From positions 1-48,650 of the forward strand of contig JAUVGH010000015.1 of the NCBI GenBank assembly GCA_030593885.1: a DNA stretch of 48,650 bases, given 5' to 3'. Source of the DNA: Methanomassiliicoccales archaeon (GTDB lineage: Archaea; Thermoplasmatota; Thermoplasmata; RBG-16-68-12; SOIM01). A model generated the notes under the pieces. It searched no databases. It worked only from the letters and a program-made list of their open reading frames with translations, and was not told the DNA's origin. A program made the translations under genes and the position numbers. The first letter of the stretch is position 1. The number at the start of each line of letters is the position of its first letter. Shown here in pieces: positions 8,127-43,066 of this stretch.

Positions 8127-11100
8127 CTAGAGCGGAGACCCACAAGATGTGCAGACGCTGATACCCTCGGGGTTCACCGTGCCGCAGTTGGGGCAGCTGA
8201 TCGGGCCACCCGCTGCCGCTTCTTCCTCAGCTGGAGCCTCTTCTGCAGGGGCTTCCTCTGCCGGAGCTTCTTCTTCCACCGGTGCTTCCTCGGCAGGGGC
8301 CGGCTCTTCCACGACCTCCTCTGGAGGTGCTTCCTCAACGACCTCCTCGGGCGGGGCTTCCTCGACGAACTCCTCTTCTGGAGGTGCCTCTTCTTCCACG
8401 AAGGCCTCTTCCTCGACGAATTCCTCCTCAGGCGGAAGCTCCTCCTCTTCTTCCAGAGGTGCCTCGGGTATCTCCTCTTCCGGCTTCTTCCTGGTCGCAA
8501 AGAATGCGATCAGGGCGACTATCACGATGATTATGATAATCAACAGAATCCAGACCCAGAGTTCGATTCCGCCGTCGTCGTCCGGCTTCTCCTCGACTGA
8601 GAATGTACCCGGTGTGGAGTCGCTGTTTGTAGCTTCGTCAGTTGCCGTTATTGTGTATGAGTAGCCACCAGTGTCCGTCAGTGCTGGGGTCGTGTAGGTG
8701 AACGTACCTGCGCTCAGTGTCATCACAGCGTTCGTTGCTATCGGTGTTCCGCCTGGTCCTGTGATCGTGATGACCACGGTGAGATCGTCTACTGGGAAAT
8801 TGTCAGTCACAGTCACAGTGATTGTCACTGTGTCACCCTCTTCTGGATCATCTGGTGCTACACTTGGTGTTCCGATTACCGGATCCTCTGTGTCAGGCGC
8901 AGTGGACGTAACCTCAATTGTCACGTGCTCCGTGCTTGTAATGTTCGCATTGCCCCACTCATCAGTGGCATAGACGTAGACGTCATAGGTTCCCACAGCC
9001 CAGCCCAATACATCTATTTCCACAGTGACATCTTCGACTGTTTCGTCGAATGCTCCGTCAACTGCGGTCATCAAAGTGCCTGGCCAAGTTGTAGCTCCTA
9101 TTGTATAGTTCGCGCCACCAACGTTACTCGCAGCTCCAGCCGTGTTTATGTCTGTTATAGTCGCTGTCACATTGACCGTCGTCCGTTTCCCCACTTGGAA
9201 GATTGTGGAATCAGATGCGACGCTTGAGATCTCGGGTGGATCGAGATCACCGGTGTCAGGTTGTACGGTGAGCGTGGCTTGTTCAGTCTCTAGGTAGTTG
9301 CAGTTCGGTATCACGTCACAAGCGTATATGTGCAAAGAGTAGGTATCATCTGGCCAGCCAGTCGTATCAAGGTCCACTGTCACCATCTCCATCCACGAGT
9401 CGAACGCACCGTCCTGGGCCGTCATTACATCTGTGTCATAGACGACTCCTGAACCGTCTCGTACCAGATAGCTGGCATTCAGAATGTTGCTTGGTCCCGT
9501 GGTTGTATCATCAACATCTCCTGTGAAGGTGACCGTTGTGCCCTCAGGCACAGTCTTTGCAGATTGGGTATCCACAGCCAGGTTCGAAAGCAGAGGAGCT
9601 TCGGTGTCCACATCGACGATGGTCAGCTGCATATTACAGTCGCCAAGCATATTGTCGTTTCCTAGCACATCGCTACCGTAGACACAGATTGTGTAGGGAC
9701 CTCCCACGACATAGGGTGGAGTGCCCGTTATTACAATATCGACGGTCACGCCCTCACTGGGGCTGTTAAATGCACCATCTGCTGCATTCATTGGACCCAC
9801 TATTGTGCCTTCAAAGCTGAAAGACGCATTGGCGATATTCGAGTTACCGGAGAATGCATCATCGACATCGGCAGTGAGAGTGGTCGTGGATCCAACAAGG
9901 ACGGTGTGCAAAGTGGGAATAGTGTCCAGTCTTAGGTTCGTGACTGATGGTGGACTTCCATCGATATTGATAGTTGCGCAGTACAATCCACCAGTGACGT
10001 GATTGTTCGTAGGAACTGCGGTATCCCAGGCGTCAGCGATGCAGATCAAGTATGAACCGTCTGCCCAGCCAGTCGTGTCAATGATTGCCTCCGCAGTCTC
10101 GTTTGGTGTATCAAAACCCCCAACTTGAGCTGTCATGGCAACATCCGGTCCTAGATTGACATCATACATCGCTCCTCCGATGTTGCTGTTGCCTTTCGCG
10201 GAATCATCTATGATGGCCGTGAAAGTTACCATAGTACCAGGAACCACTGTTGTCTGTACCATTCCGTCAACCAACGGCGAGTAGACATCTGGTGCGAAGA
10301 TGTCGTTGACTGTAACGGTCACCGTGGCAGCTGGACCAAGAGTGCATGTGTCGTTGTAGTTCGGCACAATGTCCCAACCTCTCACGTATATGTCGTAGAC
10401 ACCCGAAAGCAGCGTTGTATCGATGACATCGATCCCCACTTCGGTGGGGGAGTCCCATGCGCCGTCTTGTGGCGTCGTTGCATTTCCCGGCCATGTACAA
10501 ATATTGGCCTTCCATTCCGCTCCACCGATATTCGAGCCTCCGGTGTTGGTTTCGTCAATTGTGGTTGTAAGTGATACCATTGCGCCCGGAGCTACTACTA
10601 GATTGGATACGCCGTCGAGTAAAACCGATGGGATCTCAGGTCCAATCACGTCCCCAACATCAGGGTCGCAGATCTCCGCCGTCGAGTTTGTCATCCCCAT
10701 TACATCGGTGGCAGATATGACATAGCACCAGTCCATACCAACAGGCATGACCGTCTGGTAGGCATAGATCGCTCCACCAAGTGGATGGACGTAATCCCCG
10801 GGTGCGCCCACGTCGTTCACCCATGCCATTACGAAGGGCGATCCCGGCAGGGGTCCTGTCGACAAGCTGTAGATATCGATTGATGGTGAACCCATCTCGG
10901 GCCAATCATTGTTCGCGTCAGCGTACCAAACCTGCCATACGAAGTTTGTTGACGTATCTCCAATCAATGGACTCAGATATCCGAGTGGTCCTGGAATCCA
11001 CAATTGCGGCGGTTGATTCGGTGGTCCAACAAAGCCGCAGTCTATCCAGTCGAACATTGTATCCGTATCCACTCCAGGCGCGGTTCTTCTGTAACCATCG

Positions 11101-11933
11101 TCCGCAACGCAGTTAGCAAGATTGGGGTCCCAAACAGAACCCGCACCCTTGTCCAGTCCAATCGTGTCTCCACCAGAGACTTCCGTATCACCAATGTGAG
11201 GTCCCCACTCGATCTTGTCCATCACAACCGGATTCCCGGATGCAATGGTTCCCAGAGGATCCGTCCAAACAAGCTTCAGGTTGCTGTCAGCGTCCTGAAG
11301 AGTAACTGAATGTGGAACGGGACTCGTTCCCAACGGGGGCAGAACATCTGCCACCCCGAATCCCCAAATGCCGCCAGAACTGTCCTCGAGGTTCCAGTCC
11401 GCTGCCAGGTCCACATTGCTCGCTGCAGCCGGATTGTAAAGCTCCACCCAGTCTGAAACGTTCACAGGTGCAACCTGATTCAAGGTCACCATGTTCGGTT
11501 GGTTCGCAGACTGAACGATCAGGTTCATGGAAGTGTCCACAACACCATCGGTGTAGACCGGTGCGTTACTTGCTATATATGACTGTGGTTGTCCTGGTAC
11601 CATGACCCAGAAGATGATCGGTTCTCCGTTCACACCACCTTCTTTGGCCGTGTCGTTCGCAGTGTCCTCTCCGGATACGGTCAAGCTGTAGATGCTTCCA
11701 TCATACCCGCCTGTCCCGCCGAAGGTCGAGTCCTGTCCATACAAAGTTCCGTCTATCTCAGCGAACACTTCCGTATTGGGGGGTGCGTTCAACGCATTGA
11801 ACGTTATCGACCCGCTAAAGAAGTGCATGTTGGGCGGGGCTACCACAGGAACCGAGAAGATCCCCAGCATTCCAAGCCCACTCAATAGCACTACAAGTGC
11901 CCATATTCCGGCTGACATCTTTCTTCTTATCAT
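8127..11933 (-). CDS. Cell-surface protein: signal peptide, lamin-tail-like domain, repeated Ig-like domains, TM, acidic E/P/A-rich tail, C-terminal zinc ribbon
   Basis: N-terminal signal sequence; NQVAPVNVSDWVELYNPAAASNVDLAADWNLED...VMDKIEWG lamin-tail-like; repeated D..GWPDDTYSLHIYACDVIPN-type units; TM IELWVWILLIIIIIVIVALIAFF; tail EEEEELPPEEEFVEEE...; ends CPNCGTVNPEGISVCTSCGSPL. SD GAGGTGATATGAC before ATG 11933; 23-nt gap to the upstream gene. Confidence 0.9.
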   Translation of the reverse strand: MIRRKMSAGIWALVVLLSGLGMLGIFSVPVVAPPNMHFFSGSITFNALNAPPNTEVFAEIDGTLYGQDSTFGGTGGYDGSIYSLTVSGEDTANDTAKEGGVNGEPIIFWVMVPGQPQSYIASNAPVYTDGVVDTSMNLIVQSANQPNMVTLNQVAPVNVSDWVELYNPAAASNVDLAADWNLEDSSGGIWGFGVADVLPPLGTSPVPHSVTLQDADSNLKLVWTDPLGTIASGNPVVMDKIEWGPHIGDTEVSGGDTIGLDKGAGSVWDPNLANCVADDGYRRTAPGVDTDTMFDWIDCGFVGPPNQPPQLWIPGPLGYLSPLIGDTSTNFVWQVWYADANNDWPEMGSPSIDIYSLSTGPLPGSPFVMAWVNDVGAPGDYVHPLGGAIYAYQTVMPVGMDWCYVISATDVMGMTNSTAEICDPDVGDVIGPEIPSVLLDGVSNLVVAPGAMVSLTTTIDETNTGGSNIGGAEWKANICTWPGNATTPQDGAWDSPTEVGIDVIDTTLLSGVYDIYVRGWDIVPNYNDTCTLGPAATVTVTVNDIFAPDVYSPLVDGMVQTTVVPGTMVTFTAIIDDSAKGNSNIGGAMYDVNLGPDVAMTAQVGGFDTPNETAEAIIDTTGWADGSYLICIADAWDTAVPTNNHVTGGLYCATINIDGSPPSVTNLRLDTIPTLHTVLVGSTTTLTADVDDAFSGNSNIANASFSFEGTIVGPMNAADGAFNSPSEGVTVDIVITGTPPYVVGGPYTICVYGSDVLGNDNMLGDCNMQLTIVDVDTEAPLLSNLAVDTQSAKTVPEGTTVTFTGDVDDTTTGPSNILNASYLVRDGSGVVYDTDVMTAQDGAFDSWMEMVTVDLDTTGWPDDTYSLHIYACDVIPNCNYLETEQATLTVQPDTGDLDPPEISSVASDSTIFQVGKRTTVNVTATITDINTAGAASNVGGANYTIGATTWPGTLMTAVDGAFDETVEDVTVEIDVLGWAVGTYDVYVYATDEWGNANITSTEHVTIEVTSTAPDTEDPVIGTPSVAPDDPEEGDTVTITVTVTDNFPVDDLTVVITITGPGGTPIATNAVMTLSAGTFTYTTPALTDTGGYSYTITATDEATNSDSTPGTFSVEEKPDDDGGIELWVWILLIIIIIVIVALIAFFATRKKPEEEIPEAPLEEEEELPPEEEFVEEEAFVEEEAPPEEEFVEEAPPEEVVEEAPPEEVVEEPAPAEEAPVEEEAPAEEAPAEEAPAEEEAAAGGPISCPNCGTVNPEGISVCTSCGSPL
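8196..8480 (-). repeat. Low-complexity Glu/Pro/Ala-rich coding repeat (cytoplasmic tail)
   Basis: Translation PEEEFVEEEAFVEEEAPPEEEFVEEAPPEEVVEEAPPEEVVEEPAPAEEAPVEEEAPAEEAPAEEAPAEEEAAA; DNA is near-repetitive gcttcctctgccgg/acctcctcgg units. Confidence 0.8.
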
Positions 11934-11956: not shown

Positions 11957-14900
11957 TCACTCTCCAGGTACCGTCCAGGTACCGTTCGCACTCATCAGGA
12001 TCCAATATCCCTTTCCATTCTCGATGCTCTGGAGCGGCGAACCACCTGGATCGTTGGGGTCGAACCACTTCCAAGGCATCTTTCTGTCAGAGGGATCGTA
12101 GTACATCACTATGACGTACAATCCCGAAAGACCGTTATTATCCAGCACATCTGGCAGAGCGCCAGGAGCGTCCAACAGGTTGGGATATCCCACGAAGAAC
12201 CAGGAGTCCAGACCTATCGTCAGTGCGATCGGTGTGCTCGTCGGCACACGGCCCACAGTGATGAAGTCCAGGTTGTTCTTGTCGGATTCCACACGGATTC
12301 CCTGCATGTTGTCCACATCAGTAAGAGGACCTCCGATCGTCGGCACCCATGACAGCCAGGTCGCGGTGGCAGTATCGTAGACAGAGACCTTCCTGATGTC
12401 TCCGGAAATATCGCCGAACACGGCGCCCACAGTGGTATCATGAAGTTCGAAAGGTATGGAGATGTCGTTGGTTCCCTTGTGGAGCTGGTTGTAGAACTTG
12501 CCGACCTTGTTCGTGTTGGACTCGATCAGCAGACTTGTGACGTTTATCGCTCTCACGACGTAGAAGTAATTGTTCGCATCAGCGGCTTCATTGGGGTCGG
12601 GGTCGGTCCACGGCGGTGCAGGTGTCTGGTCGTACGGCACTCCGAAGTTGAACCCGTCCACGGTCATCGATCTGAAGACGTTGAACTGCACATCCGGCTC
12701 GGAACTGCCCGGGGTCCAATCGAGCTCCAGGTCGGGGCCGACAATTGCTATTTGCAGGTTCGTAGGAGGCGGTGGCGGTACCGACGGGAAACAGGTCTTG
12801 CCGGCTGCCCAAATCATTGCGTTGTAAAGGATCTGCTTGTCATCTACGTTCGATGACATTTCGTGGGCATTGGAGAGGTATATTCCTTTTCCCACGTCGT
12901 TGGCTACGATCGCGCCGGCCGAAGGTACAGGTGTTGAGTTACCAAGGTACTCGCCTCCAGGTAGCAGATTGGTTGCTGTCCATCCGGCTGGATCAGGTAC
13001 GAAACCTCCAGGAGTAGATGATATTCCGCTACCTGTCGTGAATGGATCAGCTATGTTGCAGAACACCGTGTGTCCTCCATCTATCTGCTGATAGTCAGTC
13101 ACTCCAGTAGTGTCACCGTATGACTCGCTACCGTCTATTCCGAACAGCGGCGCCAACTGATTGTGGTTGATCAGACTGAACGAATTCAGCACAGTTCCAG
13201 TTCCCATGATTCCATGGCCAGCGTTGACATAAGCCTGGATGGCCGTTATCTCCGCGTTTGTGAACTCGGATGTGGAAAGGCCTGTTGAGTTCGAAGAAGA
13301 GATCAGCAAGATGTCCGCGCTCGAATACGTCAGGTCCAATGTGGTGATGTCCTCCTTGTCCAGGTATGTGTAGTCGATGAGTATCTGGAACGAACCATAT
13401 GTTGCCCAGTTCGTGTTCAGATCATCCCACGGTGCCATTCCTGCGTTGTCAGTGCCCCATGAATCCAGGACCATGATGATGATAAGACTCTGATCGACAA
13501 CTTCAATGTTCTTGCACACCTCGTTGTTGGACGTGTCGGTCTCTCCCACTACCTGCATCACCTTCATGCAGATGTTGTATGTGCCAGGTGTTGCAGGCGG
13601 ATCCCAGATCAATGTGACTGGTGTGGTCATTCCAACCCCGAGCGTTGGAATGTTCGTCGAATCCACGACCGTACCATCCTCGGTCAGGACAACATCTATT
13701 CCTGCAGTGCTGTTGTCCTCAACAACGCTGGCCAGGTTCGCCAAAGTGGCAGTGATGTCCATCGTCGGCGTGGGTTTCACCCTGTCCGGTCCTATCAGAC
13801 CAGACATCGCCACATCATGAGCGACTATCTGATACTGGCTCCAGACCATCGAATTATAGAGGATCTGTTTATCCACCGCGTTGCCGAACCATTCGGGCAT
13901 CCATGATATGTATACCAGCCGCTTGTACTCGACCAATGCCACCGACAGTCCTGTTGACGTGGCCACATAGGTTCCGCCAAGGGTGCCCGGTCTCATGTCT
14001 GCCGCGTCCCATGTTCCATCGTCGTCAGGAACGCTTGAGTAGTTATTCCCAATCGTGAACGGATCTGCAGCCACACCCGTTAGAAGTTGGTGGCCTGCAC
14101 TCACGTGGTTAACGTCAACCTCCGATGGGTTGGTCTGATTGAAGGTCTGATTGACTATGCCGAACATGTCTAACAATGCGTCGTTATTTGGTATCGTGGA
14201 GTAGAACGTAGTACCAGTGGCAACCAGTCCGTGGCCTTCCACGGTGTACTTCTTGATAGCCGCTATCTCAGCGTAGGTGAGTTCAGACCATGCCTGTGCA
14301 AGGGCCAACCTTGCAGACAAGGAGACCACCAAGGTATCTGCTCCGGTGGCTGCAATGTCCGCGTAGGTGATCGATGTCTTGTTCAACAGGCTCCATTCTA
14401 TCTCAACCGGAGTTACACCATAAGTCTCCCAGTTCGTATTCAAGTCCATCCAGGATTGAATCACCGGACCGCTCTTGGTTCCCATCGAACGGACGATAGA
14501 GATCTTCTTTGATGGAACGTCTCTGACGCCTATCGTCTTGCAGACCTCGTTGTTCCCGAGGTTCGTCTCTCCCTGAACAGGCCATGCCTCGATGCACACG
14601 CTGTAGTCGCCGGTCGATCCGGGGACCCATATGAAGCTGACTGGCTGCGATCCGGATAGAGGTATTGAAGGGATGTTGTCCACCTGGACATATGCACCGT
14701 CTATCTTCAGCCACGCGTCGACGCCGTTCGTGTTGTTGTCCTCGGCCGACTGCCCAAGGTTGTAGATGGTGGCGTCAACATTCACATTGTCCGTCGGCAG
14801 CGCATAGTTGGGGGCGCTGAAGCCTCCGACGCTTACGTCGTTGGCCTCTTGCGCACCATATACGTAAAGCCTGTCAATGAGCCAACCTCTGAACAGGTTG

Positions 14901-15976
14901 TTCTGATTGTCTATCGTATCAAAATAGAACTTGAATCTAACCGTCTTACCCGCATACACTCCCAGATCGAAATACTCCTTCGTCCAGTTGTCGGTGCCCG
15001 TTGTTATCCAGAGTCTCTGTTCCACCCAGATCCCCGGGTTCGACGTGTCCTCAACGAGGAACCTGGCCAGGTCGAAATTCATGAAGTTCTCGGTTCGGAG
15101 GTCGTGCCACAAGCTCATTGCTGGGTCGCTGTATCCGGACAGGTCAATGTTGCCGGAAGTTAGGTTACCATAGTTCCTCAAACCCAGTGGTGGTGGACCG
15201 TAGAAGTAAGTGTTCACCAAGAACGGGTCGGGCTCAGTGATGTTCGCATACCACCATGCAGTCGAAGGACTCTCACTCACGTAGGACCAATACGTGTCCA
15301 TGTGCCAGAGAGGGCTCGGTCCTCCGCTGAAGGTCCAGCTACCCTGACCGCTTTCCATCTCGTCACTCCAGATAACGGTCTTCACGAGTGTCTCACCCGA
15401 GCTCGGAGTATTGATCGTCGGAGCGGGATCGGCACAGATAATCGCGGTCAACTCGATGCCGAAAGTAACGCCCTCGGTTCCGGCTGCAACGTCAATATAG
15501 ACTGTAATATACTTCGGATTGAAAGGTCCGACGCTGTATCCGCTGAAGGTCATGAGTTGCGGAAAAGATGGACTCATCACCGATGATAGAACGCCGTTGT
15601 TGCCCGTTTCCACTTCATTCCAATCCATATCCACTTCGCCATCAAGATCGTTGAAAAGAAAGATCTCTTCAATGTCAGCGTCAATGGCCGTTGAACCCGC
15701 CGTTAAATCGAACGTCATGCTCGTGACGCTCACAGCCTCATCCTGGGGCTGCAAAGTCAAATGTAGCGTCGTTATGTTGTTGTCCTGGGGGAACACTCCT
15801 TCGACAACAGCGGAGTTCGATCCAGTCACCACAAGGTCGACAACAGCCACGACGTTCGTCGAAGCGAACGCGAAGACGGCTGCGAACCCAGCGACCACCA
15901 TTACAACACAAACGATCGCAGATGAGGCTTTCTTAATATCCTTCTCACTACCAGAATGTTTGCTCAATAGCTTCAT
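11957..15976 (-). CDS. Giant secreted protein, paralog group A (MAM/immune-inhibitor-A-like region, CARDB-like, two GATase1-like domains, FN3, C-terminal WKWFDPNDP module)
   Basis: ORF 11957-16006; preferred ATG 15976 (MKLLSKHSGSEKDIKK...) with GAGGAGGTC SD immediately upstream. Strong residue-level similarity to 18643-22728 and 23249-27343 (LNTNW..YG, DKQILYN(A/S)M(V/I)W, PWKWFDPNDPGGSPL). Confidence 0.9.
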   Translation of the reverse strand: MKLLSKHSGSEKDIKKASSAIVCVVMVVAGFAAVFAFASTNVVAVVDLVVTGSNSAVVEGVFPQDNNITTLHLTLQPQDEAVSVTSMTFDLTAGSTAIDADIEEIFLFNDLDGEVDMDWNEVETGNNGVLSSVMSPSFPQLMTFSGYSVGPFNPKYITVYIDVAAGTEGVTFGIELTAIICADPAPTINTPSSGETLVKTVIWSDEMESGQGSWTFSGGPSPLWHMDTYWSYVSESPSTAWWYANITEPDPFLVNTYFYGPPPLGLRNYGNLTSGNIDLSGYSDPAMSLWHDLRTENFMNFDLARFLVEDTSNPGIWVEQRLWITTGTDNWTKEYFDLGVYAGKTVRFKFYFDTIDNQNNLFRGWLIDRLYVYGAQEANDVSVGGFSAPNYALPTDNVNVDATIYNLGQSAEDNNTNGVDAWLKIDGAYVQVDNIPSIPLSGSQPVSFIWVPGSTGDYSVCIEAWPVQGETNLGNNEVCKTIGVRDVPSKKISIVRSMGTKSGPVIQSWMDLNTNWETYGVTPVEIEWSLLNKTSITYADIAATGADTLVVSLSARLALAQAWSELTYAEIAAIKKYTVEGHGLVATGTTFYSTIPNNDALLDMFGIVNQTFNQTNPSEVDVNHVSAGHQLLTGVAADPFTIGNNYSSVPDDDGTWDAADMRPGTLGGTYVATSTGLSVALVEYKRLVYISWMPEWFGNAVDKQILYNSMVWSQYQIVAHDVAMSGLIGPDRVKPTPTMDITATLANLASVVEDNSTAGIDVVLTEDGTVVDSTNIPTLGVGMTTPVTLIWDPPATPGTYNICMKVMQVVGETDTSNNEVCKNIEVVDQSLIIIMVLDSWGTDNAGMAPWDDLNTNWATYGSFQILIDYTYLDKEDITTLDLTYSSADILLISSSNSTGLSTSEFTNAEITAIQAYVNAGHGIMGTGTVLNSFSLINHNQLAPLFGIDGSESYGDTTGVTDYQQIDGGHTVFCNIADPFTTGSGISSTPGGFVPDPAGWTATNLLPGGEYLGNSTPVPSAGAIVANDVGKGIYLSNAHEMSSNVDDKQILYNAMIWAAGKTCFPSVPPPPPTNLQIAIVGPDLELDWTPGSSEPDVQFNVFRSMTVDGFNFGVPYDQTPAPPWTDPDPNEAADANNYFYVVRAINVTSLLIESNTNKVGKFYNQLHKGTNDISIPFELHDTTVGAVFGDISGDIRKVSVYDTATATWLSWVPTIGGPLTDVDNMQGIRVESDKNNLDFITVGRVPTSTPIALTIGLDSWFFVGYPNLLDAPGALPDVLDNNGLSGLYVIVMYYDPSDRKMPWKWFDPNDPGGSPLQSIENGKGYWILMSANGTWTVPGE

Positions 15977-16040
15977 GACCTCCTCTCCTAACCACAGTAA
16001 TGCCACTTACGGGGACTTTCGGGATTGTATCCATTTCAGA

Positions 16041-16070
16041 TATAAAAAAATGTTGGAACAACGTTTTGAC
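16041..16070 (-). promoter_or_regulatory. Proximal promoter with shared upstream motif
   Basis: Plus strand tataaaaaaatgttggaacaacgttttgac; coding strand GTCAAAACGTTGTTCCAACATTTTTTTATA. Confidence 0.6.
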
Positions 16071-16091
16071 TCCATTACACCCAGACCTGGA

Positions 16092-16109
16092 GGCAATAAC
16101 GTTGTTGCC
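16092..16109. promoter_or_regulatory. Near-perfect 18-bp palindrome between tandem promoters (candidate operator)
   Basis: ggcaataacgttgttgcc; perfect apart from one symmetry-related T/G position. Confidence 0.4.
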
Positions 16110-16157
16110 GTCTAGGGAAAGGATTTCTCTCACCGTTCTTTCAACCGTTCTTGTAAT

Positions 16158-16186
16158 ATAATATAAAATTGGAACAATCTTTTGAC
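16158..16186 (-). promoter_or_regulatory. Distal promoter with second copy of shared motif
   Basis: Plus strand ataatataaaattggaacaatcttttgacc; coding strand GGTCAAAAGATTGTTCCAATTTTATATTAT. Confidence 0.55.
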
Positions 16187-16226: not shown

Positions 16227-18602
16227 TCACACCTTCTTGCTGAGGTCCTCGTATTCGAGATGGGACCCGTTCTTAGCCACGGAGAGAAGTCCAATCTTCT
16301 GCAGCGACTTGATGTGGTAGTTGACGACCTGCTTGCTGGTTCCCAGTGCCTCGGCGATCTCGGTCTGTGTCAGGTCGGGGCCCTGTCTGATCATCTTCAG
16401 GATGGCCTTCTGGATCATGCTGGCCTTGGTCCTCTTCACCCTGGTCACACCCGCCGGATAGAATCTTTTGTTCCTGCCGTCCACGCGGGAGGCCACGAAG
16501 CCTTCCCTCTCCAAGATGTACAGATGATGAGTCAGTGTGCCGTTCTCCACTCCCATGGCCTTCTTGATAGAGGAGTAGTTCTCCCCTGGATATGCCATTA
16601 TGTAACCGTAGATCTGACCCCTGAGGAACTGGTTGAGCACTTTCTCCTTGTTCAGTTTGGAGTACAGTGGCACCAGGAAGTACAGGAAGAACCGGAACCT
16701 GCCGTATTCGGTGATTCCCGTGAATGCTCCCAGTGCGACAACAACAACTCCCATGGCTCCCAGGATGATCAGTGTGTTATCCACAGGTTCAGGATCCATT
16801 CCCTGCACCCGTATGTAGAATATCTGGACATCTCCGTCTTCACCATCTGTGACGTATATGAATATGAGATTTTGGCCTTCTTGGCCTTCTACCGGGCTCC
16901 AGGTGACCATGCCGGTGTGTTGGTCAATGGCCATTCCAACCGGCGCGTTGACCAGTGAGTGTGACAGAATGTCGTCCTCGTCCGGATCATATGCCTCAGC
17001 GAAGTAGACGTAGTCCTCGCCCACTTTTCCGTGTTCAATCGGGCTTCTGATGAAATATGGCGGGTTGTTGATTACGATCGGGGCTGGGTAGGCAATCCTG
17101 AACCACAGGTTCCCGCTTGCGGTGTTTCCCACGTTGTCTTGAACGATATAACTGACATTGTAATGCTTCTCCTCTGAGAAGGCGATCATGCCAAGATAAT
17201 CTCGGAAGGATCCTCCATCGGACGAGTATCTGAGGCTCTTAACACCTGAGCCAATATCGCTTGCCACCAGCTCCAGTGAAGTTTTCGAGTCGATTGTGAC
17301 AGGATTGCCCCCTTCGCCGCCAGGGTCCAGAGCCATGGAAACGGTCGGTGCTGCTGTGTCCAGAGAAAGGCTCTTGGAGTTCGTCGGTTCCTCGTTGTTG
17401 GCCGGATCGGAGCTGTAGAAGGAGATGGTATTGGCACCTTCTTTTGTCAGATGGAAGGGTGTGTGGTCGTACAGTTCCCAAGCCCCTCCGTCAATCGAGT
17501 ACTTGGTCTGAACGGGTTCTGTCCCTCCTGGTGAGACATCGAACGACAGCTGGGTTGCACCTATGTACATGGGCGCGGTCCCGTGAGTTGGACCCGAGAT
17601 CACCAGTGTCGTCACCGGATCCAGCTGATCTGCGAGAGTCAGATATTCTATCCTGTTGCCATCGATCCATATCTGTCCAACAGTGGCATTCGTATAGCCG
17701 AGCTTCGATGCTTTTATGACATGTGGAGTGAAGTGGGTCCTGTTCTCACCGAAGAACCCAAAGCTGTCCACATACTCGGTGGCAATGAGATGTGAAACCC
17801 CTTCACTGTTGGTAATCCCAGCGTCAGAAGCGGTCCCATTCGCATTGTCCTTCAAAAGAACGTCAGCGGCCTCTACGTCCTCACTTATCGAATTGTCCAC
17901 GTGGACATCCAAGAACCACTGCCTCTCTATGCCAGCGGTCGGATCCCCTATCTTGACCTTCGTATCATTGTAGGTGGTGTTGAGTGCCGTGACCCATGAG
18001 TTACCAGAAACATCGAAATCAAAATACGACATCCCTGAGTATAATGTGCAGTTCTCAAAGACCGGGTCGGAGTCCGAGCCGCTCCTCGAGTCAGCCACCA
18101 CGGCTGTTCTGAGTGCGCTTATCTCCGAGTTGACGAATCGTGGCGAAGATGACGATATCTGAAGACCATTGCGGGACATCATGATCGATACGTGCTCGAG
18201 CACCGATCCCTCGTCCTCAATGAATGCCAGTGACCTCCACAGCTTGTCCATAGATGCAAGCTTCGTCGTGATCAGGATGGGTTCAGCGGACGTTCCATTC
18301 GCGATGATCCTCCCTCTTACGTCGATTCCGAGATTGTCATCGACAAGCACCGTCACGCCTGCTTCGATGTAGAGCGTCTGTGTCGAATTCACTACGAAGT
18401 CCTGTCCGGTAATCTGGATCGGTAGCCCTTTGGCCCAGAATATGTCATTCAATCCTTGGGGGGGTTCGTCCCCGCCAACGGCGAATGGGCTGATGGAAAG
18501 TGCGCTCAATGAGAGTAGAAATGCCCCCAGCAGCGCCGCTGTTGTCAATCTCCTTACTGAGGAGATATCCCCATCTCTACCCTTGCCACAACTGTTTGTC
18601 AT
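16227..18602 (-). CDS. Membrane-anchored transcriptional regulator: extracytoplasmic beta-helix/Ig-like sensor, TM, C-terminal tandem winged-HTH
   Basis: Signal sequence; beta-helix-like region (DNLGIDVRGRIIANGTSAEPILITTKL...SVLEHVSIMMSRNGLQISSSSPRFVNSEISAL); Ig-like region (FIRSPIEHGKVGEDYVYFAEAYDPDEDDIL...GMVTWSPVEGQEGQ); TM NTLIILGAMGVVVVALGAFTG; then RGQIYGYIMAYPGENYSSIKKAMGVENGTLTHHLYILEREGFVASRVDGRNKRFYPAG and LTQTEIAEALGTSKQVVNYHIKSLQKIGLLSV, typical wHTH recognition-helix patterns. 40-nt gap to the upstream gene. Confidence 0.9.
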   Translation of the reverse strand: MTNSCGKGRDGDISSVRRLTTAALLGAFLLSLSALSISPFAVGGDEPPQGLNDIFWAKGLPIQITGQDFVVNSTQTLYIEAGVTVLVDDNLGIDVRGRIIANGTSAEPILITTKLASMDKLWRSLAFIEDEGSVLEHVSIMMSRNGLQISSSSPRFVNSEISALRTAVVADSRSGSDSDPVFENCTLYSGMSYFDFDVSGNSWVTALNTTYNDTKVKIGDPTAGIERQWFLDVHVDNSISEDVEAADVLLKDNANGTASDAGITNSEGVSHLIATEYVDSFGFFGENRTHFTPHVIKASKLGYTNATVGQIWIDGNRIEYLTLADQLDPVTTLVISGPTHGTAPMYIGATQLSFDVSPGGTEPVQTKYSIDGGAWELYDHTPFHLTKEGANTISFYSSDPANNEEPTNSKSLSLDTAAPTVSMALDPGGEGGNPVTIDSKTSLELVASDIGSGVKSLRYSSDGGSFRDYLGMIAFSEEKHYNVSYIVQDNVGNTASGNLWFRIAYPAPIVINNPPYFIRSPIEHGKVGEDYVYFAEAYDPDEDDILSHSLVNAPVGMAIDQHTGMVTWSPVEGQEGQNLIFIYVTDGEDGDVQIFYIRVQGMDPEPVDNTLIILGAMGVVVVALGAFTGITEYGRFRFFLYFLVPLYSKLNKEKVLNQFLRGQIYGYIMAYPGENYSSIKKAMGVENGTLTHHLYILEREGFVASRVDGRNKRFYPAGVTRVKRTKASMIQKAILKMIRQGPDLTQTEIAEALGTSKQVVNYHIKSLQKIGLLSVAKNGSHLEYEDLSKKV

Positions 18603-18642: not shown

Positions 18643-21600
18643 TTAACTACCTGGGAGCGACCAAGTTCCTAGCAGTGTCGTGTGCACCCAGATGCCCATC
18701 CCTGGTCTGAGTTCAGTCAATGGGCTGCCACTAGGATCGTTCGGATCGAACCACTTCCAGTGCTGCTTCTTGTCCAGTGGGTCGTACCACAGCACCAGGT
18801 CGTACTTCCCGGCCATTCCGTAATTGTCCAGCGCATCCGGAAGCGGTGTGTTCAGGTGCCTTGGGAAGCCCACGAAGTTCCAGTAATCGGATACAATGTC
18901 GTGGTACAGACTGATGTCGGTCATCGCCGAAACGCGTCCCACGGTCACGAAGTCAACGGTTCCAGCGCTTGGCTCCATGGTGACTCGGAGACCCATCGTA
19001 TGGTCCACGTCAGTCAGCGTTCCTCCGGTCGGGGTCCAGGCCTTCCAGACGCCCATTTGGGCATCGAAGGCCTCGATCTTCTTGAATAAATTCGTCAGCT
19101 GGCTGAACACGACTGATGTGGTGGTGACCTGCAACTCGAACGGTAGTGATATTTCGTTAGCTTTCGGATACAGGGTTATGACGAACTTCCCGGCGGTGTT
19201 CATGTTCATCTCTTCGTTGCCGTTGGAGTCGTACGCCCTGACGATGTAGTAGTAGTTGCTCGGATCAGGAATCCCGGTGTTCGGGTCGATGTACTGGGTG
19301 GTTCCGGCAGGCACTGTGGCCTCTGGAACTCCGAAAGCGAACGTGTCCACACTGTTGGCCTTGTAGATATTGTAGCCTACGAGTCCAGTGGATGGATTCT
19401 CCGTCCAGGTGAGCCTCAGGTCAGCGTCACCGTTCCAAAGCTCGACCCACAGGTTACTGGGAGCCTTGACGCTCGATCTTGCCCAGACCATGGCGTTGTA
19501 GAGCAACTGCTTGTCGTCGGTGTTCGACAGCCTCTCCACGAAGTTCGAGATGTAGACCGTGTTGTAGGTTCCTGGTTCATGTGCAATGACCGCACCATAT
19601 GGTCCAGTCGGGGGGCTCTGTAGCGCTCCGTAGGCTCCGCCGGTGAGGTGCGTGGCGTCCCATGGCTCAGGGCCGGTCATGAAGAAACCAGGTGTAAGTG
19701 ATGTGCCGTTCCTTGTGTTGTAGTTCGTCAGTATATTGTAGAACAGCGGATGGTTCTGTGCCGGGTTCTGGACCTCCATGTCGGTGACTCCATACGTCAC
19801 CATGTACTGAGCGGTCCCGTCCATGCCCATAAGCGATCCTAGCTGAACAGCATGGTTAGGCAGCGTATTCGTGTCGAACGTACCGCCGGTCACTATGAGT
19901 CCGTGTCCGTCGTTGACGAAGTTCTTTATCGCTGTCATCTCAGAGGTCGAGAAGTAATGTCCATCCAACACCGGGTTCTCCCCAGAAGTACCTGAGAACG
20001 AGCTCGATATCAGCAGGACATCAGCGTTCATGTCAACTAGCTCTTGATACTGGATGTTCTCCTTGTTGAAGGTGGTCCAGTCAATGAAGACCGGTGTGGT
20101 TCCATATTGTGCCCAGTTCGTATTGAGATTGGCCCATGGTGCCAGGACACCATTGTCAGTTCCCCAAGAATCGAGGACGAACACCTGAACCGGTGGATTG
20201 TTCCTCGCCTTGACCTCGGTACAGACCTCGTTGTTGCTGAGGTCCTCATCAATGAAGCCATTGATATCCGCCCTCATGCAGACGTTGTCATCGAATTCCG
20301 AGGACGGTGTATACTGAAGTGTCACCTTCTGGGAGCCTCCGGCAGCGGTAAGGAATATTGCTGTTGAATCCTGCTGGACCGTGTTCACCAAGAGTTTGAC
20401 ATCGACGTTTTCGTTGTTCTTACCGATGTTCTTGATGGTGGCTGATACGTTCACCGGATATCCGACTCTCGCATAGTTGGGTGCGATTATGTTCTCCGCC
20501 TTCACATCGTGGTCGAAGACCTGGTATTGGGCGTTGACCATCGCGTTGTACAGGAGCTGGTACACATCGTTGTTCGGTGTCCTCTCTGCCGCGAAGGACA
20601 TCATGTAGACGCCCTTGTTGATCACTATCGCGGCCTCCTGACCAGGCGATCTGGCGCAGTACACGCCAGTGCTGAGGTCGCCGGCTGCCCAACTGGTGTC
20701 GATCGGCGTCATTGTGGAGTTGAAAGGCAAAGTGAACGGATCGCTCACACCTTGGACCAATGGATCACCAGCGCAAGATGTCTCAATGTCCATAGTTGTG
20801 ATTGGCTCGTATCTCACATACGTCTGGTCCGTGATGCCCACGAGGCCTGTCAGATCGTTGTTATTCGGAATGTTTTCATTGAACACGGTGCCAGTGAGGA
20901 TTAGCCCATGTCCTTCCAGGGTGTACTGCTCGATCGCTGCCGTTTCCACATCCGTGAACTGGCCGCCCGGAGGAGTAACTCCATCTATGTGGCCTGCAGA
21001 GCTTGAGATCACAAGTGTGTCAGGCTTGGGAGACTGGCCTGATATGGTCGCATAATCGATCCCCGACATATCCAGGCTGGAATAGTCAATGATGACCTGA
21101 TCGCTTCCGAAAGAGAGCCAGTTGGCGTTGAGATGATTCCATGTATCTTTGGCTGCCTGGGTCGATGTTCCCTGTGATCGTACTACATAGATGTAATGCG
21201 CTGGAACGGAGCTAACCGTGACCACCCTGCAATCCTTATTGTTCCAGAGTTCTGTCTCTCCGGACACTGGATCTGCTACCATACACACCCAGTGGATGCC
21301 CAGGATCGTTGCCGCCCAGGTAAGCTGATGAATCACATTACTCCCGCTCAGGATGGACGGAATGTTGCCTGTGTCAACAGTTGAGTTGTCAACAGTCAAT
21401 CTTGTGCCAATGTTGGTCTCATCACTCGAGCCTATATTGTTATATTGCGCCGAGACGATGAGTGGGTTCCCTGGGGGAGAGACGACAGGGAGCGCATCGT
21501 TATTGTTAACGTGTATGTCGTGTGCCAATAACTTCCCGTAGACCACAAGGTCATCAACGAACCATCCTAGCCAATTGGCGTTGTTCATAGTATCGACCGT

Positions 21601-22728
21601 GTCGAACCTCAATTCCAGCTGAACACTGCTGCCAGCATATGCCGATAGGTTCACCGTTTCCTTCCACCAGCTTGAGTCGGTCGAGTCCCAGCCGTCTGGG
21701 TATGGCGTGATCTTATGCCACGTTCCATCGTTCAAGAACATGTGGCCGTTGTCTACCTTGTAAAGTCCCGTATCAGGCTCTCCAGCCAGCAAGTGACGGA
21801 AGGTCACAGCCAGACTGCTTCCGGTGGTGGCATCGATATTGGGGGTCGTCAGATTGCCCATGTTCCGCGTGGATGCGAACAGGTCGCCTGTCATATTAGT
21901 GTAATAGTTGCAGAAATAATCTCCGAACCAAAGATGCCTGCGGCCGTACCACCATCCGGTGGTTGGGCTCTGGTAGAACGGTTGATCGAACATGTTGTTC
22001 ATGCAGTCCTCCTCTCCAGAGCTCAGGTGCCAGAGACCCTCAGGCTCATACAAGTGTCCCTTGTCCCATCCTTCTCGCGACCATCCACCCATCCCGGATT
22101 CCATATCATCACTGAAGAAGATATGTAGTACCTCAACAGTGCTGCTCAATCCAGAATCTCCATTGATGCTCGTCGCATCCGTGGTCATGGTGTCAAGGCT
22201 GATGTTTATGGTGCTTCCCTCGATTGCCGATGCCGAGATCGAAACGAAGACCATTATGTATCGTGTCTGGAACTGGGGTATGATGTAGTTCCCAAAAGGT
22301 GAATTACAGTTGTTCAGGCTGCCCGCGGTCGGAAGTGTGAAGAATCCCGTCGGATTCGTGATCCTGGCCAGCTCACACTCATAGTAACCCTGCAGTTTGT
22401 CAGGCCCCACTATGCCGTTGGAATCGTCCCACAGCACAACACTCGAGACCTCACCTGCCCCGAACGTTCCTCCCAAGGTGAAATCCAATGAACTCACCCT
22501 GACATCACCGCCCGTCGGCATCATCTCTATCCACAGCATCGTCACGTTCGCGTCGCCGGGGAAAGTATGAGTTGACGGTGCGATGTCGTATACCCTTACG
22601 TCCAAATCTCCTGCCGTCGGCGGAGCCACCACAATCATCGGTGCCAAAACAATAACCGCCGCGATCATCATCGAGGTCAAAGCTGCCAATGACCCCACGT
22701 CTTTCATGCCTTCAGAAGCACTTTCCAT
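18643..22728 (-). CDS. Giant secreted protein, paralog group A
   Basis: Signal sequence; DDMESGMGGWSREGWDKGHLYEPEGLWHLSSGEEDC MAM/immune-inhibitor-like region; two GATase1-like segments; FN3 (WVELWNGDADLRLTWTENPSTGLVGYNIYKA); ends KKQHWKWFDPNDPSGSPLTELRPGMGIWVHTTLLGTWSLPGS. Confidence 0.9.
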   Translation of the reverse strand: MESASEGMKDVGSLAALTSMMIAAVIVLAPMIVVAPPTAGDLDVRVYDIAPSTHTFPGDANVTMLWIEMMPTGGDVRVSSLDFTLGGTFGAGEVSSVVLWDDSNGIVGPDKLQGYYECELARITNPTGFFTLPTAGSLNNCNSPFGNYIIPQFQTRYIMVFVSISASAIEGSTINISLDTMTTDATSINGDSGLSSTVEVLHIFFSDDMESGMGGWSREGWDKGHLYEPEGLWHLSSGEEDCMNNMFDQPFYQSPTTGWWYGRRHLWFGDYFCNYYTNMTGDLFASTRNMGNLTTPNIDATTGSSLAVTFRHLLAGEPDTGLYKVDNGHMFLNDGTWHKITPYPDGWDSTDSSWWKETVNLSAYAGSSVQLELRFDTVDTMNNANWLGWFVDDLVVYGKLLAHDIHVNNNDALPVVSPPGNPLIVSAQYNNIGSSDETNIGTRLTVDNSTVDTGNIPSILSGSNVIHQLTWAATILGIHWVCMVADPVSGETELWNNKDCRVVTVSSVPAHYIYVVRSQGTSTQAAKDTWNHLNANWLSFGSDQVIIDYSSLDMSGIDYATISGQSPKPDTLVISSSAGHIDGVTPPGGQFTDVETAAIEQYTLEGHGLILTGTVFNENIPNNNDLTGLVGITDQTYVRYEPITTMDIETSCAGDPLVQGVSDPFTLPFNSTMTPIDTSWAAGDLSTGVYCARSPGQEAAIVINKGVYMMSFAAERTPNNDVYQLLYNAMVNAQYQVFDHDVKAENIIAPNYARVGYPVNVSATIKNIGKNNENVDVKLLVNTVQQDSTAIFLTAAGGSQKVTLQYTPSSEFDDNVCMRADINGFIDEDLSNNEVCTEVKARNNPPVQVFVLDSWGTDNGVLAPWANLNTNWAQYGTTPVFIDWTTFNKENIQYQELVDMNADVLLISSSFSGTSGENPVLDGHYFSTSEMTAIKNFVNDGHGLIVTGGTFDTNTLPNHAVQLGSLMGMDGTAQYMVTYGVTDMEVQNPAQNHPLFYNILTNYNTRNGTSLTPGFFMTGPEPWDATHLTGGAYGALQSPPTGPYGAVIAHEPGTYNTVYISNFVERLSNTDDKQLLYNAMVWARSSVKAPSNLWVELWNGDADLRLTWTENPSTGLVGYNIYKANSVDTFAFGVPEATVPAGTTQYIDPNTGIPDPSNYYYIVRAYDSNGNEEMNMNTAGKFVITLYPKANEISLPFELQVTTTSVVFSQLTNLFKKIEAFDAQMGVWKAWTPTGGTLTDVDHTMGLRVTMEPSAGTVDFVTVGRVSAMTDISLYHDIVSDYWNFVGFPRHLNTPLPDALDNYGMAGKYDLVLWYDPLDKKQHWKWFDPNDPSGSPLTELRPGMGIWVHTTLLGTWSLPGS

Positions 22729-22802: not shown

Positions 22803-22834
22803 CTATAAAAGAATATTGGAACAACCCTTTGACC
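22803..22834 (-). promoter_or_regulatory. Promoter with shared upstream motif
   Basis: Plus strand ctataaaagaatattggaacaaccctttgacc; coding strand GGTCAAAGGGTTGTTCCAATATTCTTTTATAG. Confidence 0.6.
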
Positions 22835-22934: not shown

Positions 22935-23252
22935 ATGGAGACTTCGGAACGTATAGTCCTATTTCGTGCCGTACCTTTCACCTCCGCGTTCAACGACGCT
23001 CTCAGGATACTCAAGAGCAACGACCTGACCATCGCCGAGTGTGACCCCGATAAGGGATTGATCAAGGCCAATGTAGACGAGAGCATGCCGCTCGAGGATT
23101 ATCAGATCGTTGCGAAGTTCTGGAAGGGCAAGGACAGGATTCTGATCGGGTTGAGAGGTAGCGTCTCGTTCAGCTTTTCCGGAGCGGAGAAGCTCGAGAA
23201 GAAGCTGAAGAGGCTGGAGACCGACTTCAGGCGGTTGGATTACGCCTATTAG
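22935..23252 (+). CDS. Small soluble hypothetical protein (about 105 aa), probably leaderless
   Basis: ORF 22851-23252; TATA box ttatatac at about 22902 lies about 30 bp upstream of internal ATG 22935 (METSERIVLFRAVPFTSAFNDALRILKSNDLTIAECDPDKGLIKANV...), so the shorter start fits better than 22851. Confidence 0.7.
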   Translation: METSERIVLFRAVPFTSAFNDALRILKSNDLTIAECDPDKGLIKANVDESMPLEDYQIVAKFWKGKDRILIGLRGSVSFSFSGAEKLEKKLKRLETDFRRLDYAY

Positions 23253-26200
23253 TCTCCCCTAACATCCCAGAACCCTGGTTGGGTAACGTGTATCCAGATG
23301 CCCATTCCCGGCCTCAGTTCCGTCAGTGGTGAACCGCTTGGATCGTTGAGGTCGAACCATTTCCATTTCTGTTTCTTGTCGGATGCATCGTACCAAAGCA
23401 CGAGGTCGTACTTCCCGGCCATTCCCCAGTTGTCCAGTGCCCCTGGCAATGATCTTGTCTCGAATGATGGATATCCCACGAAGTTCCAGCTGTCGCAGGC
23501 GATATCGGATGTGATCTCAATGCTTGTGAAGACGACCCTTCCCACGTTTATGAGCAGTCCTGTGGATCTCATGTTCACCTTCAGTCCCATGTTCCTGTGT
23601 ATCTGAGTTAGAGCGCCGCCGGTGGGCGTCCATGCTTTCCAAGTGCACGTGAACGGGTCGAACGCTTCGATGGTCTTGTACTGTCCATCAACGGACTCGA
23701 ACGCCACCGATGTGGTGCTGTCCTTGAGCTCGAAGCCAATGGATATCTCGTTGCTGCCTTTGTACAACTGCTGCGCGAACTTCCCGACCCTGTTCAGGTT
23801 CTGCTCTTCGTTTCCCTTGCCGTCGAATGCTCTAACGAGGTAGAAGTAGCTGTTCGCGTTTATGCCCACAGCCTCTGGATCGACCCATATATTGGTTGTG
23901 TTGTCCACGGTCGCGTAGACGTTGTTGAAATCGAAACCGTTCACCGTTGCCGCCCTGTAGATCCGGTAACCTTCGATCTTCGGAGATGTGGCCAAGGTCC
24001 ATTCCAGCCTTACAGTGTTACCATCTTTGTATATCCACAGATTCGATGGCGAGTCAATGCTTGTCCTGCCCCAGACCATCGCGTTATAGAGCAGCTGCTT
24101 GTCGACCACGTTGGAGCTCCTTTCCACGAAGTTGGTGATGTAGACTGAGTTGTATGCACCCGGCTCATATGCGATGACCGCGGCGTTGTCGGTCTGAATG
24201 GACATCGCTTTGTATTGTCCGCCTGCAAGTTGACCTGCCGTCCAGTTCTCCGCCCCTGTCATGAAGAAGCCAGGTGTCAACGTGGTCCCGTCCGAGGTCG
24301 TGTACGTGTCCGAGATCTTATTGAACAATGGGTGGTTCTGCTGTGGATTAAGGACCTGAAGGTTGTTGATTCCAGTCAAGAATGTGTATGTGTTAGTTGG
24401 ATTAAGTCCGAACAGCGGACCGAGATCGACCCCGTGCTTGGGGATCTTGTCAGTGTCGAACGTCAGGCCGGTCGCTATGATGCCGTGCCCTTCCTGAACA
24501 TATCGGATTATCGCATCGACCTCATTGTCCGTGAAGTAGTATCCTGCCAGAACCGGGTTGTCCATGTCCCCTGACCTGGAGCTCGATATCAAGAGAACGT
24601 CGGCGTAGGAGTCGACCAGTTCCTGGTAGTAGATGCTCTCCTTGTTGAACCTGGTGTAGTCTATGAAGACCGGCACGTTTCCGTACAGGTTCCAGTTCGT
24701 GTTGAGGTGATCCCATGGAGCAAGTGCTCCGAAGTCCGTTCCCCACGAGTCCAGAACGTATATCTGAACGGGCGGATTGTTGGTGGCTTCCACTGACATA
24801 CAGTCTTCGTTGTTTGCAGGATCCTGGTCCGTGAAACCGACGATATCGGCGAAGACGCATACCTGATGAATGCCAACTGTAGATGGTACCCAAGTGAAGT
24901 TGACAAATGCCTGGTCCGCATGCAGAAGCGGTATTACCTGCGTGTCAACCGGCGTTCCGTCGATCCTGAGGTCAACCTGAACAGAGGCAAGGTCCTTCTT
25001 GCCGATGTTCGCGACCACTGAACTGATCCTGGCTGGATAGGAAGGTCTCACGAATCTGTTCGAGTTGATGTCCGAGACCTTCACATCGTAGTCGAACGCT
25101 TGATATCGAGACCATACGAAGGTGTTGTAGATGAGCTGGATTTCCGCAGGCGTTGGCGATGCGTCAATTGCGAAGGTGAAATACACGGATCCCTTGAATA
25201 TCGTGATTGCTGAATATCGCTGTCCAGGTGAGTGTGCGCAGTATTGAGCGCCGTCGAGGTCGTCGGTGTCCCAAGACATATCATTATTGGGAGTTGCAGT
25301 CTGCTCGAAACCGTTCTGGAAGACGCCGGGAACGTTGTTGAATATCGGATGAGATGTGCATGTGCCGAGCACCTCGACGTCCGAGATGTTCCCCTTTGTT
25401 GTGAAAGGCTGGTCCTTTAATCCGACCAGACCCACCAAATCGTTGTTGTTGGGCACTAGCTGGTTGAATGCCGAACCTATCGCGACGAAACCGTGGCCTT
25501 CTCTTACATACCTCGCTATGGCCGCCGTTTCCACATCGTCCAATTCAGTTCCGAATGGAGGTCTGAAGTAGAAGCCAGAACCCGAGAGTACCAGCAGGTC
25601 GGCCTGAGTGTTGTTTATCATTTCATAGGTGATTGGATAAAGATCCAACGATACGTAGTCGATCAGAACCGGGTCGGACCCATAGTCGCCCCAGTTCGTG
25701 TTAAGGTGGCTCCACAACGCCTTGGGCCCGTCTGCCTGGGTTCCATATGATCTGAGAATGAGTATCTTCGTGTAAGTCTGAGAAGTTGCCGTCACCATAT
25801 TACACTGTTTGTTGTTCCAGAGAACGCTCTCACCCGGTACGGCGGCGCTTTCCACGCATATCTCGTAGGTTCCTTCCGCCGGCGGAGTCCATTGCATGGT
25901 AGCATTCGTAGTGGCGCCGCTGGCCAGGAATGATATGGTCTTTTGGTCCACCAATGACCCATCCTGGGTAAGATTAACCCTGATGTTGCTCTCATCGCTG
26001 GCCCCTATGTTGGATACTCTGGCCGTGATGTTCTGTAGCGTGAGCGTGACGTAGTCGGCCACACTCAGGTCAGTGACTGCAATGTCATGATCAAGAATCT
26101 CGCCATAGATTACGAGATCATCTATGAACCACCCCAGGAAGAGGTTATTCATAGCGTCCATCGTATCGAACCTGAATTCGAGCTGTACCTGCTTTCCAGC

Positions 26201-27292: not shown

Positions 27293-27378
27293 AATAACCT
27301 CCTCGTTTCGTTTGGTTTTCTCCCCCGATGCCCCTTTCATCAAGAAAGGTAACTTACTGTGATTAGATTGGTCTGAGA

Positions 27379-27414: not shown

Positions 27415-27870
27415 CTAGGAATGGCTCTTGCTTTTTGTATGCTTCTTGACGCCTTCCCCTCTCCTTGCGGCGGCTCCCATTGTCACAAGCGCGAATATCA
27501 AGAGAATCACATTCACTATCAGGCCGATCGAGAACCAGTTGTCGAGGTCCGGGACGCTGATCGAGCTCGGATGGTTCATCCAGGAGAATATGGCTATTAT
27601 CATCTCAATTATCACGAACGGGACCGCGATGAGGACGGCTGTGGACCTTCTGTCTGATGCCAGCGCCTTCAGTTTTGCGGACGGGAGATACCTCTTACAT
27701 CTTGGGCATTTCTCTTCACTGTGCTCGCAAGCCTCGTGCAGTTCGACACCGCACCAGCCGCAGCCGATCGTCTTCTGATCGGCGGCGATCTCGGAGTTGC
27801 AGATCGGACATGCTTCCAGAGGTTCTTCCATCATCCCGACCTCCTCTTCCACGTATGTATCCTCCTCCAT
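27415..27870 (-). CDS. Small membrane protein with N-terminal RING/treble-clef-like zinc finger (C4HC3) and two TM segments
   Basis: CPICNSEIAADQKTIGCGWCGVELHEACEHSEEKCPRC = C-x2-C-x12-C-x2-C-x4-H-x2-C-x6-C-x2-C; TMs TAVLIAVPFVIIEMIIAIFSW and WFSIGLIVNVILLIFALVTMGAA; ATG overlaps the TGA of the upstream gene (TGATG). Confidence 0.85.
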   Translation of the reverse strand: MEEDTYVEEEVGMMEEPLEACPICNSEIAADQKTIGCGWCGVELHEACEHSEEKCPRCKRYLPSAKLKALASDRRSTAVLIAVPFVIIEMIIAIFSWMNHPSSISVPDLDNWFSIGLIVNVILLIFALVTMGAAARRGEGVKKHTKSKSHS

Positions 27871-30715: not shown

Positions 30716-30762
30716 ATACATATAGATTCCTGAAAAGAACCGCTTTTGAACAAGTTCCAATT
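30716..30762 (-). promoter_or_regulatory. Promoter with variant shared motif
   Basis: Coding strand GGAACTTGTTCAAAAGCGGTTCTTTTCAGGAATCTATATGTAT; nearly identical to the block at 33874-33921. Confidence 0.6.
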
Positions 30763-33840: not shown

Positions 33841-33873
33841 TGTGATTCCCTCGCTGAGAACATAACTTGCTCC

Positions 33874-40284: not shown

Positions 40285-40288
40285 GCGA

Positions 40289-43051: not shown

Positions 43052-43066
43052 CTCCCAGTGTGAGCC

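Follow-up and report, generated by a model that had tools for sequence, protein, structure and literature searches.

What does a protein with a surface-type ectodomain at one end and DNA-binding domains at the other do within an array of surface-protein genes? The gene in question occupies positions 16227–18602 (minus strand) of a 48.65-kb window, the whole stretch of DNA that was analysed, which is one entire contig (JAUVGH010000015.1) of a 2.14-Mb, 86% complete assembly (G000) from a Methanomassiliicoccales archaeon. It starts with ATG and encodes 791 amino acids. We consider it probable, at about 74%, that the product is a single-pass, kinase-free transmembrane regulator that binds an 18-nucleotide element with the pattern GTCAAANNNTTGTTCCAA and controls two operons, its own and that of the surface-protein genes at 11957–16006 and 8127–11933. 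Comparisons drew on a set of 21 close-relative genomes and on a sample of 116 genomes from the phylum Thermoplasmatota. The nearest relatives are G001–G004, metagenome-assembled genomes within this phylum; G001 belongs to the same genus as the source and is 87% complete.

Architecture of the transmembrane regulator

The first-pass annotation of this gene had described a signal sequence, one transmembrane (TM) helix, and two cytoplasmic winged helix-turn-helix (wHTH) domains, and hydropathy, Pfam matches, and AlphaFold2 (AF2) models bear this out. Hydropathy detects an N-terminal segment of the signal type at residues 19–43, within a signal sequence assigned to residues 1–43 (18474–18602; this and all other features of the gene lie on the minus strand), and a single other strong segment at residues 606–632. 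The latter belongs to the TM helix, placed at residues 604–636 (16695–16793) by hydropathy and the AF2 model. Since the residues before this helix are acidic (MDPEPVD) and those after it are basic, the C-terminus is expected to lie inside the cell, as had been supposed. A conserved basic juxtamembrane helix with a PLYSKL motif follows at residues 637–655 (16638–16694).

The C-terminal 150 residues or so form two winged helices according to both Pfam and AF2. The second (wHTH2, residues 723–791; 16230–16436) is of the HTH_24/MarR/ArsR type, with Pfam matches at residues 730–776 to HTH_24 (4e-12) and MarR (2e-11), and with HTH_5 also above its cut-off. The first (wHTH1, residues 656–722; 16437–16637) is tentatively assigned to the HVO_0163_N type on the basis of Pfam, conservation, and AF2. 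Over residues 661–724 it scores 27.3 bits against HTH_HVO_0163_N in the whole protein and 32.4 bits in the C-terminal fragment, relative to a curated cut-off of 31 bits, and the orthologs in G003, G004, and G002 score 36.9, 38.1, and 28.4 bits, respectively. In the AF2 model the succession helix-helix-helix-strand-strand occurs twice, with pLDDT mostly 80–94. wHTH1 consists of helices at residues 632–670, 676–683, and 687–699 and strands at 703–708 and 711–716; wHTH2 has helices at 729–740, 746–753, and 757–769 and strands at 773–778 and 781–786. A fold search with the regulator model was dominated by a cadherin-like domain of the ectodomain and gives no ranking of the wHTHs.

That cadherin-like domain, also of the He_PIG type, is the juxtamembrane Ig domain of the ectodomain (residues 506–603; 16794–17087). 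Residues ~510–600 adopt the cadherin-like Ig fold in the AF2 model (pLDDT ~90 or more) and in the fold search, and Pfam He_PIG is above cut-off in orthologs. It is preceded by two OmpL47-type Ig-like domains (residues 323–505; 17088–17636), matched at residues 366–495 by NCBIfam NF047446 (E = 3.7e-23, above cut-off). The most distal part (residues 44–322; 17637–18473) probably begins with a short beta-helix and continues as a carboxypeptidase-regulatory/Ig-like part. Here hhalign aligns residues 44–322 with the beta-helix-plus-Ig part of a paralog, C78 (98.7%, E = 4.6e-16), which itself passes Pfam Beta_helix; the regulator has no direct domain match to a beta-helix, and its AF2 model is of low confidence in this part, as in most of the first 480 residues of the full-length model, which was built from restricted alignment rows. 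Of the beta-helix/Ig ectodomain originally described, the Ig-like portion therefore stands (NCBIfam, AF2, and orthologs), and the beta-helix is retained as probable by homology to C78.

Pfam and NCBIfam scans found no HisKA, HATPase_c, or receiver domain in the regulator. Full-length orthologs are present in G002, G003, and G004 (75, 53, and 51% identity, respectively), and comparison with the G002 ortholog places the coding sequence under constraint (dN 0.17, dS 1.42). Among the orthologs, identity is 84–96% in wHTH1, 79–84% in the juxtamembrane helix, and 42–73% in the ectodomain; PLY of the juxtamembrane motif is invariant in 19 sequences. The protein could instead have a structural role at the cell surface, with HTH-like C-terminal segments that are fortuitous or mediate contacts between proteins, and its ectodomain does resemble portions of surface proteins in its own genome. 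We find this scarcely credible, however, because no part of the orthologs is better conserved than the wHTHs, which are also confidently folded in the model, and because the module turns up across the phylum joined to unrelated ectodomains.

A second possibility concerns how the DNA-binding part reaches its sites. An Ig-like domain directly before a TM helix is a usual setting for regulated cleavage. The regulator has this arrangement, and its fold search includes the juxtamembrane domain of dystroglycan. Proteolysis near the membrane could release the DNA-binding part upon a signal, with all else as we propose, and we judge this improbable: in the AF2 model the TM helix runs into the juxtamembrane helix, which is continuous with wHTH1 and strongly conserved, and we saw no protease gene within the gene cassette described below. 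A regulator that acts on DNA as a transmembrane protein remains the reading that we prefer.

An operator-like element beside the TATA box

The window contains three copies of the 18-nucleotide element, all on the minus strand and at a fixed distance from a TATA box. One (GTCAAAGGGTTGTTCCAA, 22816–22833; TATA core 22804–22807) precedes the operon formed by the surface-protein gene at 18643–22728 and the regulator gene. The other two precede the surface-protein gene at 11957–16006: a distal copy (GTCAAAAGATTGTTCCAA, 16169–16186; TATA core 16157–16160) and a proximal copy (GTCAAAACGTTGTTCCAA, 16053–16070; TATA core 16041–16044). In an intergenic alignment of four genomes GTCAAAANGTTGTTCCAA is invariant and the flanks diverge; two copies lie between the regulator gene and 11957–16006 in all four genomes, and one lies before 18643–22728 in three. 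Three copies in the window compare with 0.30 expected, and none of 100 shuffles reached three. Across the whole assembly, GTCAAANNNTTGTTCCAA at up to one mismatch is found at only these three sites, and a reversed control pattern had no matches in that assembly.

In the 21 genomes, the same search returned 22 matches in six genomes, namely five of the same family and G008, which has one. With the exception of a copy inside an open reading frame (ORF), each directly precedes a gene for a secreted protein or, once (G008), a gene of the TM-wHTH family (21/22), positions that account for about 1.1% of the sampled sequence (G004). The TATA box was not included in the query, and a TATA-like sequence nevertheless occurs at one distance in 21 copies (positions 27–30: T in 20, A in 21, T in 21, and A in 19). 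The G008 copy (C113:3213–3230) lies 38 nucleotides upstream of the start of another TM-wHTH gene (L140; 487 amino acids). This placement suggests that the gene, in a genome from another family of the order, is autoregulated as well. G002 has a second island of surface genes (C1:63000–73100) with two copies of the element; nearby is a third TFB gene, which is missing from G000.

Gene order around the regulator is conserved, the synteny that had been put forward as a check on the locus. A four-gene cassette in the order surface gene, regulator, surface gene, surface gene recurs in G002, G003, and G004. The gap between the first surface gene and the regulator is 40 nucleotides in the window, as first reported, and 36–40 nucleotides in these relatives, where the operon with the upstream surface gene is kept. 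In the second operon, 8127–11933 lies 23 nucleotides after 11957–16006. We did not find a regulator ortholog in G001 (87% complete), where paralogs of 18643–22728 reach only 43–51% identity, so the whole cassette may be gained or lost together, as judged from this one incomplete assembly.

Part of the element is not distinctive. Among 15 ordinary TATA promoters of G004 used as a control, CAA occurs shortly upstream of TATA in 40%, whereas none has both an A-block and CAA in the right spacing. The trailing CCAA was consequently rejected as a specific half-site. The specific portion of the element, to judge from these promoters, is GTCAAA..TTGTT.

The first-pass annotation had expected the regulator to control the adjacent surface-protein genes directly, without a kinase, from four promoter intervals. 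The one-component architecture and the element at two operons agree with this, and 16041–16186 and 22803–22834 hold the element. The extension to the whole surface-protein array does not hold up: 30716–30762 and 33874–33921 contain no copy at up to three mismatches, and the latter is mostly coding, the actual gap there being 9 nucleotides. A weak look-alike at ~30740 (TTCAAAAGCGGTTC) was not used as an operator copy. Because the other surface promoters of the window have no element, predicted control shrinks to two operons with four genes, including the regulator.

Several observations count against this reduced proposal as well. No copy at up to three mismatches precedes 27870–30680 or 30763–33912. 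Given how often CAA occurs in the control promoters, the terminal CCAA of the element may be an ordinary TFB site, or B recognition element (BRE), of this lineage. The element persists once in G001, which at 87% completeness has no regulator ortholog; together with the G008 copy before another family member, this means that the pairing of element and regulator is not one to one. Moreover, the element and the surface-gene family are restricted to nearly identical sets of genomes, so that co-occurrence is confounded for the window regulator.

The regulator family and the elements of its other groups

The source genome carries seven copies of the module of TM helix plus tandem wHTH, in the window protein and six paralogs. 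The paralogs have ectodomains with PKD plus beta-helix, FG-GAP plus He_PIG, NosD/beta-helix, or DUF11 domains, or a single small domain. By domain composition, the family thus appears as a constant cytoplasmic module with swapped ectodomains. The window protein was matched at E ≤ 1e-20 in 17 of the 21 close genomes, and the family profile was matched in 91 of the 116 phylum genomes with up to 28 matches per genome, although soluble proteins may account for some of the weaker single matches. AF2 predicts propeller-like sheets, an Ig domain, a TM helix, and two wHTHs in an FG-GAP-type regulator of a relative (L062; mean pLDDT 77). In two other members (L076 and L079) a zinc ribbon and a short helical tail follow the second wHTH. 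A structure search found no solved structure that spans the module of TM helix plus two wHTHs, and gave weak matches to single wHTHs such as 5duk.

Genes of the family have same-strand secreted neighbours more often than controls do, both upstream (9/62 versus 6/320) and downstream (16/66 versus 8/320). In these counts orthologs enter repeatedly, ORF calling is crude, and four of nine groups have none, and we do not treat them as the main proof. The search for related loci was built on a closer alignment; a diverse alignment of the seven paralogs yielded no usable pattern.

Other groups of the family have elements of their own. The C37 ortholog group has nine members across several families, and the element ACAAA-N7-ACAAAT-N4-TT.WATA stands upstream of both the C37 gene and the surface gene next to it. 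Genome-wide, 29 copies occur in 13 of the 21 genomes (one to three in each), a reversed control had no matches in the same genomes, and nearly all copies with a readable downstream gene precede regulator or secreted-protein genes. The element is present in 13 of 13 genomes recorded with a C37-like gene and in none of the other eight (Fisher 5e-6, uncorrected for kinship), where gene presence was judged from open-frame length (about 333–386 amino acids) among matches to the window protein. G015 and G019 contain family members of 376 and 494 amino acids and no copy of the C37 element; these may be diverged C37 orthologs, which would make the co-occurrence 13/15 rather than 13/13. In a third group (G001, G002, and G003), GAACA.A.ATC stands before TATA at the group's own promoter and at a neighbour's. 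This pattern is noisy at two mismatches, and only perfect matches were used; one was found in each of exactly these three genomes among six searched. Four further groups show similar blocks at their own or their operon's promoter, each found once at low mismatch per 20-kb region. The recognition helix of wHTH2 is nearly constant within groups and differs between them (SKQV.NYHIK in the window group, SQQ..SYNLR in C37), as expected if wHTH2 reads the group-specific part of the element, and we infer that it does so.

These groups bear on the question of which protein reads the window element. The reader might be a soluble paralog of the HVO_0163 type, or else an alternative TFB that recognises a special BRE, in which case the membrane protein would merely belong to that regulon or would regulate something else. 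The element touches the BRE position and partly resembles ordinary promoters, and G001 carries it without a regulator ortholog. Four proteins of G000 above the HTH_HVO_0163_N (PF24266) cut-off are soluble, unlike the regulator, and TFB genes number two in G000 and three each in G002 and G003. The HTH_HVO_0163_N type also occurs in M. jannaschii, Hfx. volcanii, and M. acetivorans; a search of open-access literature gave no description of its function and a single incidental mention. We nonetheless regard either of these readers as unlikely, since a distinct element marks the promoters of each of several regulator groups and of their neighbours, and the C37 element tracks the C37 regulator. With two TFB genes and more element classes than that in G000, an alternative TFB is a poor general explanation, and a possible one for a single element class. 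The preferred reader of GTCAAANNNTTGTTCCAA is thus the transmembrane regulator.

Bacterial regulators of the ToxR/CadC type combine a cytoplasmic wHTH, one TM helix, an outside sensor, and direct promoter control. They differ from the regulator in having the reverse order, with an N-terminal wHTH of the OmpR type, and a single wHTH; the regulator has no such Pfam match. In archaea, the available portion of a census of transmembrane transcription regulators (TTRs) describes them as mostly single-pass and present in 367 of 404 species examined (Demey et al. 2023, PMC10269533). The regulator has, in one chain, the at least one predicted TM helix and the predicted DNA-binding domain of the TTR definition given there; as for its third component, control of transcription from the membrane, what bears on it is the operator-like element with its distribution. 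That portion of the census treats a broad class and makes no mention of Thermoplasmatota, tandem wHTHs, beta-helix or propeller ectodomains, or operators. ArnR and ArnR1 of Sulfolobus acidocaldarius are likewise archaeal membrane-bound one-component regulators of surface structures, with cis-boxes close to the BRE and TATA box (PMC6396743). However, they have an N-terminal HTH, a HAMP-like and a sensing domain, two C-terminal TM helices, and no large ectodomain, and their boxes are inverted repeats (TCGAC-N5-GTCGA), unlike the window element (PMC6396743); the regulator, with C-terminal HTHs, a signal sequence, and one TM helix, is not of this type. EarA of Methanococcus maripaludis is a wHTH activator of genes for surface structures; the sites that it binds, short and A/T-rich (TACATA), lie upstream of the core promoter (PMC6396743, PMC13286277). 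Its description resembles what we predict for the regulator, a wHTH at surface-gene promoters, and it is not presented as membrane-bound in the available parts of these accounts. We found no description of the family or its operators in the open-access literature (subscription literature lay outside the search), and with the TTR definition this makes it a new family within the known class of transmembrane one-component regulators.

Surface-protein genes of the locus and a model for their control

The predicted targets are all encoded on the minus strand. The gene at 18643–22728, the first of its operon, and that at 11957–16006 encode secreted surface proteins of 1361 and 1349 amino acids, respectively, with CARDB domains. 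The gene at 8127–11933, predicted to be controlled through the 11957–16006 operon, encodes a surface protein of 1268 amino acids with a C-terminal TM helix and a cytoplasmic zinc ribbon, through which it might signal or anchor inside the cell. In G004 the ortholog of 11957–16006 is split by a TGA (C1:1111193–1115194) and that of 18643–22728 is truncated to its C-terminal 343 residues (C1:1117817–1119067), in each case by sequencing error or decay.

Six surface proteins of the window (11957–16006, 18643–22728, 23249–27343, 30763–33912, 33922–38988, and 45569–48463) share a C-terminal region of ~200 amino acids, which consists of an FN3-like part followed by a WMDS.G.W / KWKWFD.NDP repeat and ends in a GxGYxI-like strand. 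The region has no Pfam match and no C-terminal TM helix and is, from its sequence, a candidate surface-attachment or sorting module. Three others (8127–11933, 27870–30680, and 98–2833) have a C-terminal TM helix and a long charged cytoplasmic tail. Repeated domains that start with VLDSWGTDNG..APW..LNTNW occur in 23249–27343, 18643–22728, and 11957–16006 and have weak Pfam matches to ThuA and LBP_M (class I amidotransferase-like). A metabolic cluster at 39067–45494, judged by eye from translations to contain isocitrate dehydrogenase-like, aconitase-like, and citrate synthase-like proteins and a rubredoxin/FMN-dependent enzyme, lies amid the surface-protein genes and is absent from the corresponding stretch of G002.

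In the mechanism that we propose, the exported beta-helix/Ig ectodomain would presumably detect the condition of the surface coat or a ligand within it, and the two cytoplasmic wHTHs would bind the element. Positioned directly upstream of TATA and overlapping the BRE, the bound regulator would adjoin TFB and govern the recruitment of TFB and TBP. The first target would be its own operon with 18643–22728, closing an autoregulatory loop, and the second the 11957–16006/8127–11933 operon with its two promoters; direct control of both is supported as a prediction. The location upstream of TATA argues for activation, which is the more likely sign of regulation, with repression through blocking of TFB as a possible alternative. 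Paralogs would act likewise, with other ectodomains and other operators.

More broadly, we see even odds that Thermoplasmatota use an expanded set of modular surface receptors that are themselves transcription factors, with one conserved tandem-wHTH output, interchangeable adhesin-like ectodomains, and their own TATA-side operators. Each operator would wire its receptor to the receptor's own gene and to particular adjacent surface-protein genes, so that the cell could read and reset its coat one receptor at a time, with neither kinases nor second messengers. This bears on how archaea perceive their exterior and remodel their surface. The phylum-wide family supplies predicted sets of receptor, operator, and target that are open to experiment, and the paralogs form a natural series whose recognition helices differ along with their operators, which would be useful for decoding DNA recognition by tandem wHTH proteins.
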